From Ectothiorhodospiraceae bacterium (GTDB lineage: Bacteria; Pseudomonadota; Gammaproteobacteria; Nitrococcales; Aquisalimonadaceae), in NCBI GenBank assembly GCA_020831885.1, contig JAFIFU010000001.1:186001-250000 (forward strand): DNA of 64,000 nucleotides, written 5' to 3'. The notes under the pieces are model-generated. The model was not told the origin of the DNA. It did not search any database and saw nothing but the letters and a program-made list of their open reading frames with translations. Shown here piece by piece: positions 12,940 through 47,580 of the stretch; position 1 is the first letter of the stretch; the number at the start of each line of letters is the position of its first letter. Made by a program: the position numbers and the translations under genes.

Positions 12940-13035
12940 TGGCGGAAGGGGGTGGGAGTCGAACCCACCAGACGCGCCTGGCGCGTCTCACCGGATTTGA
13001 AGTCCGGGCGCTCCACCGGGAAGCGATCCCCTTCC
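12940..13035 (-). tRNA. selC: tRNA-Sec (anticodon UCA)
   Basis: The minus-strand product is 96 nt including an encoded CCA. It has the 8-bp acceptor stem GGAAGGGG/CCCCTTCC, the anticodon loop ACTTCAAA with UCA, a long variable arm (GACGCGCC/GGCGCGTC) and the T arm GGTTCGACTCC. The long acceptor and variable arms and the UCA anticodon are diagnostic of bacterial selenocysteine tRNA. It lies between selB and the selD fusion, so it may be cut from the same transcript. No clear promoter of its own was seen. Confidence 0.97.
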
Positions 13036-44184: not shown

Positions 44185-44434
44185 CGCGGTTCCGACGGTC
44201 GCCCGCGCCGGGAATCGGCTTATCGTCGCCGAGCCACGGCTTGACACCTCCAGGACCGCTACCTAGTCTGTCCTGGTCACGCCTGATGCTGCGCTGCGGT
44301 ACGGGCGATTCCTTCCCGTGGTATGCGATTCCGAATCAAGCAGTTGCAGCAGGGCCCGGAGGATGCAAAGCTGGGCGGACAGCAATGATCGACGGGCGCA
44401 GCGAACGCGCGTCAAGCAGGCCAGGGTGATAACC

Positions 44435-44965
44435 GTGAGCGATATCCGCATTATCAAGAAGTATCCGAACCGCCGGCTCTATGATACGGCCATCAGCAGT
44501 TACATCACGCTGGCTGACGTCAAGCGTCTGGTGGTGGACGGCGTCGAGTTCCGGGTGGTGGACGCCAAGAGCAAGGATGATCTGACCCGCACTATCCTTC
44601 TGCAGATCATCAGCGAGGAGGAGGAAGGTGGGGAGCCGATCTTCAGCACGGACCTGCTGGCGCAGATCATCCGGTCCTATGGCGGGAACATGCAGAACCT
44701 GCTGACCAGTTATCTGGAAAAGAGCATGGCCATGTGGGCGGAGCAGCAACGTGCCTTTCGGGAGCAGACCCGGGATTTCATGGATGCCAATCCCATGACC
44801 ATGCTGACCCAGATCGCCGAACGCAACCTGGCCATGTGGCGGGCGATGAGCGGGGTGCAGAAAGACACACCGCCGGGTGACAAGGCCGGCGGCGACACCG
44901 CCGGCGGGGATGACGAGGACACCCGGGCAACCGCCGCAGGCAAGCGCCCCCGCAGGCGTTCCTGA
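44435..44965 (+). CDS. phaR: Polyhydroxyalkanoate synthesis repressor PhaR
   Basis: A 176-residue regulator. The N-terminal DNA-binding domain starts IRIIKKYPNRRLYDTAISSYITL and continues to about residue 65, the PHB/PHA accumulation regulator pattern. The second domain follows, with ISEEEEGG and FSTDLLAQIIRSYG. The C-terminus is a charged linker rich in Gly and Asp. In known systems PhaR senses PHA polymer and represses phasin and synthesis genes through TGC-rich sites. The GTG at 44435 is chosen for its AGGGTGA site and fit to the family N-terminus. Confidence 0.92.
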   Translation: MSDIRIIKKYPNRRLYDTAISSYITLADVKRLVVDGVEFRVVDAKSKDDLTRTILLQIISEEEEGGEPIFSTDLLAQIIRSYGGNMQNLLTSYLEKSMAMWAEQQRAFREQTRDFMDANPMTMLTQIAERNLAMWRAMSGVQKDTPPGDKAGGDTAGGDDEDTRATAAGKRPRRRS

Positions 44966-45080: not shown

Positions 45081-45147
45081 TTGACAGGTGGGTCACCTGT
45101 CGATATTCTGCCCGGCAATGGAATGATGCAACGCACAAGTTTGTGCG
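45081..45147 (+). promoter_or_regulatory. phaB promoter with two palindromic operators
   Basis: TTGACA (45081-45086) and TATTCT (45104-45109) are 17 bp apart. GACAGGTG (45083-45090) and CACCTGTC (45094-45101) form a perfect 8-bp inverted repeat inside the spacer. A second one, CGCACAA (45132-45138) and TTGTGCG (45141-45147), lies just after the predicted start near 45116 and is TGC-rich as PhaR sites are. The rest of the 324-bp gap from 44966 shows nothing else; the leader would be about 174 nt. Confidence 0.6.
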
Positions 45148-45289: not shown

Positions 45290-46036
45290 ATGAACAAGCG
45301 AGTTGCACTGGTCACCGGGGGTAACGGTGGAATCGGGACCGAGATCTGTAAGCAGCTGAACGCCAGTGGCCACAGGGTGATCAGCACCTGTGTGGATGCG
45401 GAGCGGGAGAACGTCCGGGCCTGGCAGCAGGGGTTGGCCGAAAAGGGGATGGAGGTCGACTGGGTTGAATGCAACGTTGCGGATTTCGACGCCTGCGCCG
45501 CCATGGCGGAAGTTGTTCTGGCACGGCATGGCCAGGTGGACGTGCTGGTGAACGCGGCAGGCATCACCCGGGACGGATTTCTGCACAAGATGGCGCGCCA
45601 CAACTGGGAGTCGGTGATCAGCATCAATCTCAGCGGAGCCTACAATGTGACCCGCCAGTTCATTGAGGGCATGCGTGAGCGCGGCTATGGCCGCATCATC
45701 AACATCTCGTCCGTCAATGGGCAGGCCGGCCAGTTCGGGCAGACCAACTACTCGGCCGCCAAGGCCGGTCTCCATGGATTCTCCATGGCGCTTGCCAAGG
45801 AGGGAGCCCGGAAGGGCATCACGGCAAACACGGTCTCCCCGGGCTATGTGGATACTGCAATGACCGCGGCCATGCCGGACGAAGTGCGGAACCAGATCGT
45901 CAGCCAGATTCCAGCCGGCCGCATGGCCCGGCCGGAGGAAGTCGCCCGGGTGGTGGCCTTTCTGGCGGAGGAAGCCTCGGCTTACATCAACGGTGCGAAT
46001 ATTCCCGTAAACGGTGCCCAGTTCACCAGTTTCTGA
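45290..46036 (+). CDS. phaB: Acetoacetyl-CoA reductase
   Basis: A 248-residue SDR enzyme that reduces acetoacetyl-CoA to (R)-3-hydroxybutyryl-CoA with NADPH, the monomer for PHB. TGGNGGIG (9-16), NAAG (88-91), Ser140, Tyr154 and Lys158 (YSAAK) make the SDR site. The PhaB hallmark ISSVNGQAGQFGQTNYSAAK is clear. AAGGAG lies 7 nt before the ATG; the open frame extends well upstream but without family likeness. Confidence 0.95.
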   Translation: MNKRVALVTGGNGGIGTEICKQLNASGHRVISTCVDAERENVRAWQQGLAEKGMEVDWVECNVADFDACAAMAEVVLARHGQVDVLVNAAGITRDGFLHKMARHNWESVISINLSGAYNVTRQFIEGMRERGYGRIINISSVNGQAGQFGQTNYSAAKAGLHGFSMALAKEGARKGITANTVSPGYVDTAMTAAMPDEVRNQIVSQIPAGRMARPEEVARVVAFLAEEASAYINGANIPVNGAQFTSF

Positions 46037-46185
46037 GTTTTCCCCCGGCCGCCCCCGGGCCTGGGCCGGACGGCCGGGGGCAGAGGATGGGAACTTTTCA
46101 TACCCTGCGTAGTCACAGGGGCAGTGATGGTCAGGGGAAGCTTACTTGGTGCTAAGTAAAATTCCAAAAGACGGAATTCAGGGTG

Positions 46186-46214
46186 TTGACAGAGTGGAAT
46201 GGGCGGTCTAATAT
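46186..46214 (+). promoter_or_regulatory. Strong sigma-70 promoter of the small RNA candidate
   Basis: A perfect TTGACA (46186-46191), 17-bp spacer and TAATAT (46209-46214). A TTGCT/AGCAA inverted repeat with a TGC core lies right at the predicted start, which could be a PhaR-type operator. The stretch 46037-46185 before it holds only a GC-rich inverted repeat (46042-46051 with 46071-46080) after phaB. Confidence 0.75.
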
Positions 46215-46220
46215 TGCTGC

Positions 46221-46446
46221 ATAGCAACAACGGAAAGCCAAAAAAAAGGGAGTCAGCTGGAACACCGCCTCCCACAGTCGCGATCTAGGTCGTTGTTGGT
46301 ATTATAGGTTTTATTGTTGGAAGCTCTGATTGACGCTGCCGCGATGAGCTTTCATCAGGACCGGAACGAAAGCCGGTCTAAGGTCTCCTCCAAGGCGACA
46401 CCCGTGTCGCCTACTCCTTGCCCCCTCGCCCGAGGGGTTTTTTTTT
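46221..46446 (+). ncRNA. Candidate small RNA in the PHA locus
   Basis: A unit of about 225 nt runs from the strong promoter at 46186-46214 to a strong intrinsic terminator at 46422-46446 with no believable open frame. The 3' half is a series of hairpins: GATGA/TCATC (46343-46356), GACCGG/CCGGTC (46359-46378), GGCGACAC/GTGTCGCC (46394-46411), then the terminator. The 5' half has an A8 run and GGGAG. It does not fit 6S, SRP, tmRNA or a clear Csr-type pattern. It lies between phaB and the convergent phaC and points at the phaC 3' end. Confidence 0.65.
46422..46446 (+). terminator. Rho-independent terminator of the small RNA
   Basis: CCCCTCG (46422-46428) pairs with CGAGGGG (46431-46437), followed by nine T. 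It ends about 110 bp before the phaC stop. Confidence 0.9.
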
Positions 46447-46554: not shown

Positions 46555-47580
46555 TCATGGGCTTAAATGTGTCATGGCGTGTTCCGAAATGGCGTCGACT
46601 ACCCGTGACCGTGTGCCCCTGGACAGAAACAGTCCCAGGTGACCGCCACGTAAGGCCAGGGACCGGTACGGGGCATCGGTGGAGAGCGCCCCTTCCAATG
46701 CCTGGCTGCTTTCGACCGGTACCAGGTGGTCGTCCCGGGCGTAAACGTTCAACACCGGGCAGCGGACGGCGGTGAGCCGCAACGGCTCATCCGCCAGCCG
46801 CATGGTTCCCGCAATGAGCCGGTTCTCCAGGTATCCCTCACGCAGAAAACGGTGAAACATCGGTGCCGGCTGGTCCGGACAGTCATACATCCAGGCTTCC
46901 ATGCGCAGGAATTCGTCCAGTTTGGCCGGATCGCGGGCCAGCTCCGGTAACGGAAGGTAGCGACGAAGCAACAGGTCGGCGGGGCGCAGGGCGGTGAAGC
47001 CGGCGCTGAGCCGGTGCCCCGACACCAACCCGGGCGCGGCAGCATCCGTCGGCAGTGGCCAGGTCCGCGCCAGGCGAGCGAGTTGCCCGTTACCGGCATG
47101 AAAATCCACCGGGGCAGCCACGGTCGCCAGTGCCGGGATCCCGTCCGGCCGGTGGGCGGCCAGCATCAGCGCCAGTGTTGCCCCCTGGCAGATGCCAACC
47201 ACCATGGGCGCGCGCCCGGCATCGGTCTCCACGGCCGTGACCGCGCGTCGCAGGAATCCGCAGACGTAATCCTCGAGATCCAGCGTGCCGTCCGCCAGGA
47301 CCGGATAGCCCCAGTCCACCAGATAGACCGGGAATCCGGCGGCCTGGAGATCCCGCACCAGGGAACGGTCCGGGCTCAGGTCCAGCAGGTCGGGGCGGTT
47401 GACCAGGGAATAGACCAGCAGAACCGGAGGGCGATCCCCCGGCGGCTCGCCGCCGTAGCGGTCCAATCGGAATGGCCCGCTACGGGTAAGTTGATGGCGC
47501 GCAAGCGTACCCCGGGGGACGGGTTGTCTCGCGGCCGCCGCCCGCAGCCCGGCGAGCCAGGCGTTGGTCGCTTCAGTCAT
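46555..47580 (-). CDS. phaC: Class III poly(3-hydroxyalkanoate) synthase subunit PhaC
   Basis: A 341-residue alpha/beta-hydrolase-type polymerase. The lipase-like box GICQG holds nucleophile Cys131; Asp284 (DDHLVP) and His314 (GGHLG) complete the triad. The length is near the 355 residues of class III enzymes and far below class I (about 590). PhaE is encoded just upstream and overlaps by 8 bp. Together they polymerise 3-hydroxybutyryl-CoA on storage granules. Confidence 0.95.
   Translation of the reverse strand: MTEATNAWLAGLRAAAARQPVPRGTLARHQLTRSGPFRLDRYGGEPPGDRPPVLLVYSLVNRPDLLDLSPDRSLVRDLQAAGFPVYLVDWGYPVLADGTLDLEDYVCGFLRRAVTAVETDAGRAPMVVGICQGATLALMLAAHRPDGIPALATVAAPVDFHAGNGQLARLARTWPLPTDAAAPGLVSGHRLSAGFTALRPADLLLRRYLPLPELARDPAKLDEFLRMEAWMYDCPDQPAPMFHRFLREGYLENRLIAGTMRLADEPLRLTAVRCPVLNVYARDDHLVPVESSQALEGALSTDAPYRSLALRGGHLGLFLSRGTRSRVVDAISEHAMTHLSP

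Follow-up and report, generated by a model that had tools for sequence, protein, structure and literature searches.

Storage of PHA matters both ecologically and industrially, and what is known of PhaR mostly concerns its repression of phasins and associated genes. In Sinorhizobium meliloti, EMSA revealed binding of PhaR to the promoters of phaP1, phaP2, SMa1961, phaZ and mmgR, binding was lost when the palindromes were excluded or mutated, and PhaR was found to repress the small RNA (sRNA) gene mmgR (PMC12542648). MmgR itself is a 77 nt, Hfq-dependent RNA, repressed by PhaR (AniA), that lowers phasin protein and PHB (PMC8401924, PMC12542648). A second point of reference is provided by the double-hairpin RNAs ncS03, ncS05, ncS27 and ncS62 of Burkholderia, whose CU-rich stretches complement ribosome binding sites and among which ncS27 is processed from a longer to a short form (PMC5688073).

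The window considered here is the whole stretch of 64,000 nt analysed from Ectothiorhodospiraceae bacterium (GCA_020831885.1, JAFIFU010000001.1, 186,001-250,000, forward strand), within which a sequence-only reading had proposed an sRNA gene inside the pha locus. The locus contains phaR, the PHA synthesis repressor gene (44318-44965, plus strand; TIGR01848, 162.6 bits, above cut-off), which sits two genes upstream of the predicted sRNA, phaB for acetoacetyl-CoA reductase (45290-46036, plus strand; TIGR01829, above cut-off), and a phaC-like PHA synthase subunit gene that is convergent with the sRNA (46555-47580, minus strand; TIGR01836, 242 bits, below the 365-bit cut-off). The near-consensus promoter named in that reading was recovered on the plus strand as a sigma-70 type element with TTGACA at 46186-46191, a 17-nt spacer and TAATAT at 46209-46214. 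A promoter scan of 3 kb gave four promoter-like hits versus 0.4 expected from shuffles, two of the four being one site read with two spacings, and the -35/-10 layout is conserved among orthologues with a constant spacing of 17 nt. The nine-T terminator that was said to frame about 225 nt is also present, with the stem CCCCTCG..CGAGGGG at 46422-46437 and nine T at 46438-46446 (together 46422-46446, plus strand), identified from the terminator scan and from covariation. The scan by itself was not above chance (one terminator found versus 1.9 expected), and the terminator is accepted nonetheless because conservation compensates. The predicted sRNA accordingly extends from 46221 to 46446 on the plus strand, about 226 nt, an assignment drawn from promoter, terminator, conservation, covariation and the lack of a conserved ORF. 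Upstream lies a palindrome, TTACTT-N6-AAGTAA (46142-46159, no strand assigned), with similar palindromes in some relatives; in several of them CTTAC-N6-GTAAG-like palindromes occupy a comparable position upstream of the sRNA promoter. Elsewhere the window carries a selenocysteine tRNA gene (12944-13035, minus strand; RF01852, 80.1 bits).

A DNA search located the 3′ 70 nt of the sRNA in 14 relatives, and further relatives were added with R1, a covariance model built on the 3′ module. A covariance search had been suggested for the phaB-phaC interval and, when run, it recovered the sRNA there in relatives. Of the 14 genomes in the window's family, 13 have the sRNA in the pha locus, as do 12 of 12 in the sister family; the sole exception in the window's family is a draft that is 87% complete (G007). 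Two further families contribute one genome each with the sRNA in the pha locus, G034 and G014, the latter with a degenerate terminator. The usual position is between phaB and phaC; exceptions are contig ends, G011, in which no phaC match was found downstream of the sRNA, and G006, in which the sRNA is flanked by phaR and an M48 protease gene and no phaB or phaC match was found. A second model, R2, built from only six family sequences with the two-hairpin structure specified, recovers the sister-family copies with E of about 1e-11 to 1e-6 (173 kb searched). Many weak matches to R1 and R2 in distant genomes were rejected as plain terminators, and L165/L166 and L203 were left out of the membership since their resemblance is weak. 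Aquisalimonas-type genomes hold extra copies of the sRNA. In G003 a tandem pair occupies the interval between phaB and phaC (L103 9660-10055), with identical 60-nt 3′ modules and different 5′ parts. Three Aquisalimonas-type paralogues outside the pha locus (L053, L050, L106) keep the 3′ module, but at their start site a TGTACAA..TTGTACA-type palindrome takes the place of TGC-N3-GCA, as though control had passed to a different regulator.

A TGC-containing palindrome at the start of the transcript had been read as a possible PhaR site tying the RNA to PHA storage, and the comparison with relatives strongly supports this view. The candidate operator CTGC-ATA-GCAA (CTGCATAGCAA; 46217-46227, plus strand) spans the predicted start, and 22 of the 23 orthologous promoters carry the consensus [CT]TGC-N3-GCA[AG]; a regex picked out 18 of these, and in four more it overlaps the -10 element (G005, G008, G010, G012). 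Two of the 22, G027 and the pair G037/G039 taken as variants, depart slightly in the centre or in one arm, and the operator is absent from the sRNA promoter of G004. The motif YTGC-N3-GCAR is rare, with 45 occurrences in 362 kb of the window genome. In the same genomes TGC-N3-GCA occurs at most 220 nt upstream of 18 of the 20 phasin genes examined, often as two operators 27 nt apart, the second positioned, like that of the sRNA, at the -10/start region. The likeness to PhaR-controlled phasin promoters consists in the operator core and in one site placed over the -10/start region; these promoters differ in driving a protein gene and in often having two operators, whereas the sRNA promoter combines one operator with a consensus -35. 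A promoter-like site upstream of phaB (TTGACA-17-TATTCT with CTGC-CCG-GCAA; 45081-45118, plus strand) has the same layout as the sRNA promoter; this exact layout belongs to the window genome only and is not common to relatives.

Location in the pha locus is weak proof of regulation by itself because the neighboring genes also keep their order, and the sRNA could be real and yet be bound by a protein other than PhaR or expressed constitutively, its place in the locus then being inherited synteny. PhaR binding is a prediction, and the three paralogues outside the pha locus that carry a TGTACAA..TTGTACA palindrome imply that the module is open to control by other regulators. However, operator core and spacing equal those of published PhaR sites (PMC12542648), the same core precedes phasin genes in the same genomes, and the operator has been kept while its flanks diverged, which together make regulation independent of PhaR improbable, though it is the most durable of the alternatives. 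Control of the sRNA by PhaR is the reading we pursue below.

The 3′ module consists, in order, of UCUCCUCC, a hairpin, a CU-rich linker and the terminator. UCUCCUCC (46384-46391, plus strand) is a candidate anti-Shine-Dalgarno pairing site, where every one of the 37 aligned copies has CUCCU[CU]C; the hairpin GGCGACA/TGTCGCC that follows (46394-46411, plus strand) has seven of seven pairs changed on both sides across relatives, and the second CU-rich linker, ACUCCUU (46413-46419, plus strand), is CU-rich in most relatives and less conserved. Preceding the module is the inverted repeat of the hairpin GACCGG...CCGGTC (46359-46378, plus strand), with similar hairpins in several relatives. Closer to the 5′ end, the arms of the hairpin GGGAG...CTCCC (46248-46273, plus strand; GGGA...UCCC in relatives) and a long-range GCGCUC/GAGCGC pairing seem to covary, as judged by eye. 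Stable hairpins had been expected in the 3′ half and are indeed there; the folding energy of the sRNA is only mildly below that of shuffles (z -1.8) and was rejected as proof of structure, so that the structure is convincing because of covariation, not folding energy. In the R2 alignment standard pairs fill 97.4% of cells versus 46-71% with the partner slid, values to be read knowing that a model-fitted alignment favors the model's own structure. The two 3′ hairpins show changes on both sides in 12 of 14 pairs, and none of 500 shuffles reaches any observed measure, where kinship alone can lift sequences above shuffles and the pair and type counts are the robust measures. MAFFT misplaced sister-family copies and model-based alignment mended most of them, with rows L051, L056, L058 and L063 of that family remaining registered on the second CUCCUCC. 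As read from the alignment, the sister family has the same stem as GGCGGC/GUCGCC plus an extra apical hairpin whose arms change jointly.

These features also bear on the possibility that the stretch is a termination zone between convergent phaB and phaC, with the terminator serving phaB and no separate RNA. The position between convergent genes and the terminator at the end would fit such a zone, as would the GC-rich hairpin after phaB in the window, which lacks a T-run. A termination zone would not account for a promoter whose -35 and -10 elements are conserved at a constant distance of 17 nt, nor for a covarying hairpin and a conserved UCUCCUCC ahead of the terminator; moreover, G008 has its own terminator after phaB, ahead of the sRNA promoter, and there are copies located away from phaB and phaC, all of which renders this explanation very unlikely. 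The notion that the transcript encodes a small protein is scarcely credible, since the ORFs of 20-48 codons in some homologues are not common to them, none being shared among the 18 homologues checked, the window copy holds no ORF of at least 12 codons, and the RNA varies in length from about 109 to 240 nt among homologues. The absence of coding potential claimed at the outset therefore holds up: a conserved short protein, named beforehand as the finding that counts against an sRNA, was sought among the homologues and not found. With covariation and a conserved place in the pha locus, the proposal of an sRNA gene made from the window is strongly supported, and it is comparison between genomes that establishes the predicted RNA gene, its structure, its motif and its tie to the pha locus.

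With respect to targets, the sequence-only reading had observed that the 3′ end of the RNA points toward phaC. The orientation is as described, phaC lying on the minus strand, but a functional link did not emerge, as neither phaC nor the other pha-locus genes showed consistent pairing with the sRNA. Phasin starts ranked 155, 245, 294 and 298 of 303 by duplex energy and were not enriched, in a rough set made up of 299 called genes and four phasins. Pairing with acyl-CoA synthetase starts, seen in three genomes, was set aside since it occurs merely via an ordinary Shine-Dalgarno. The window genome encodes Hfq (103 bits) and the sRNA ends in a nine-T terminator; use of Hfq is likely because the gene and the U-run at the RNA end fit an Hfq-dependent trans-acting sRNA. 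Judging from motif, position and known PhaR behavior, PhaR would occupy TGC-N3-GCA across the start and block transcription when polymer is lacking. As PHA granules form they would titrate PhaR, so that the sRNA would be made alongside the phasins. Single-stranded UCUCCUCC and the second CU-rich stretch would most likely pair with the Shine-Dalgarno of selected mRNAs, and this pairing, probably with Hfq, would shut off translation as a post-transcriptional arm of the PHA regulon. In sum, we infer expression of the sRNA, PhaR binding, Hfq use, targets and mode of action, and consider it likely on the available sequence comparisons that this is a PhaR-controlled trans-acting sRNA, probably Hfq-dependent, of anti-Shine-Dalgarno type. 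Cells filling with polymer probably turn the sRNA on to adjust protein synthesis.

Beyond the order, the survey took in 60 PhaR neighborhoods, almost every one of them from another order of the class. Two distant genomes (L157, L180) have phaR followed by a promoter with TGC-N3-GCA and then by an RNA that ends in a similar module. In L167 (6576-7182; G164), and also in L078 (G280), a phasin gene located downstream of phaR carries a module of UCUCCUCC, hairpin and terminator at its 3′ end; the phasin promoter in L167 resembles the sRNA promoter of L180, and the arrangement suggests an mRNA-derived version of the sRNA. Similar modules stand alone in G190 and G302, and no PhaR was found in either genome. 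Searching the other PhaR loci by regex for a promoter of the sRNA type gave no excess over shuffles (4 versus a mean of 2), a null result that arises in part because the regex misses sites overlapping the -10 element. The window genome carries, outside the window, a second CUCCUCC RNA (L343 1501-1563 = G000:C107:131422-131484) that resembles RF02278 and scores below its cut-off. RNAs of this RF02278-like type were found in 11 genomes of the order (L334-L344), and 11 of 11 have a TGC-N3-GCA type site in the promoter region, ten exact and the operator of G014 having a 4-nt centre (N4), and the operator mostly lies between -35 and -10. RF02278-like loci of other Gammaproteobacteria (L306-L332) form a separate observation: many have in common, close to the start, a ATATTAGAA-type stretch and then CTTACATACTGATT, which seems to be another promoter or operator shared among them.

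Since two sRNA types of the order have such an operator, the wiring may be recurrent. We see roughly even chances that across Proteobacteria PHA regulation repeatedly includes an arm of PhaR-controlled anti-Shine-Dalgarno sRNAs, comprising MmgR in rhizobia, the phaB-phaC RNA, the RF02278-like RNA and the phasin-mRNA 3′ module in one gammaproteobacterial genus. If so, cells would express the level of storage polymer as a brake on translation in addition to phasin synthesis. The setting is halophilic Gammaproteobacteria whose pha locus contains a conserved PhaR-linked sRNA, accompanied in the same order by a second sRNA type with a similar operator; here polymer load would be converted into post-transcriptional control by RNAs that resemble MmgR in wiring, not in family.

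No Rfam family matched the sRNA at gathering score: RF00519 suhB (MmgR/alpha-r8) gave 13.4 bits versus a cut-off of 41, RF02278 (double-hairpin RNA) 15.9 versus 50, and RF02837 (anti-hemB) 17.4 for the window and 26.9 for L057 versus 49.5, with all copies tested below that cut-off. In the open-access papers searched, no report of this phaB-phaC sRNA was found. Anti-hemB shares a CU-rich stretch, hairpin and terminator with the window RNA, whose relatives score weakly against it. Like the Burkholderia double-hairpin RNAs, the window RNA has two 3′ hairpins and CU-rich stretches of anti-RBS type; in the Burkholderia RNAs, as the account used here presents them, CUCC occupies the 5′ terminus and sites inside or next to hairpin 1, and in the window RNA it flanks the covarying GGCGAC/GUCGCC stem. 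That account, in the portions drawn upon, reports no PhaR link for the Burkholderia RNAs (PMC5688073). The likeness to MmgR lies in a TGC-N3-GCA type operator in the promoter and in a tie to PHB/PHA metabolism. MmgR is alphaproteobacterial and, at 77 nt, far shorter than the 226 nt of the window RNA; its operator lies between -35 and -10 whereas that of the window RNA lies across the start, and the location between phaB and phaC is not common to MmgR. The phaB-phaC sRNA thus appears to be a new RNA family, separated from described ones by Rfam cut-offs, with a known, MmgR-like kind of wiring.
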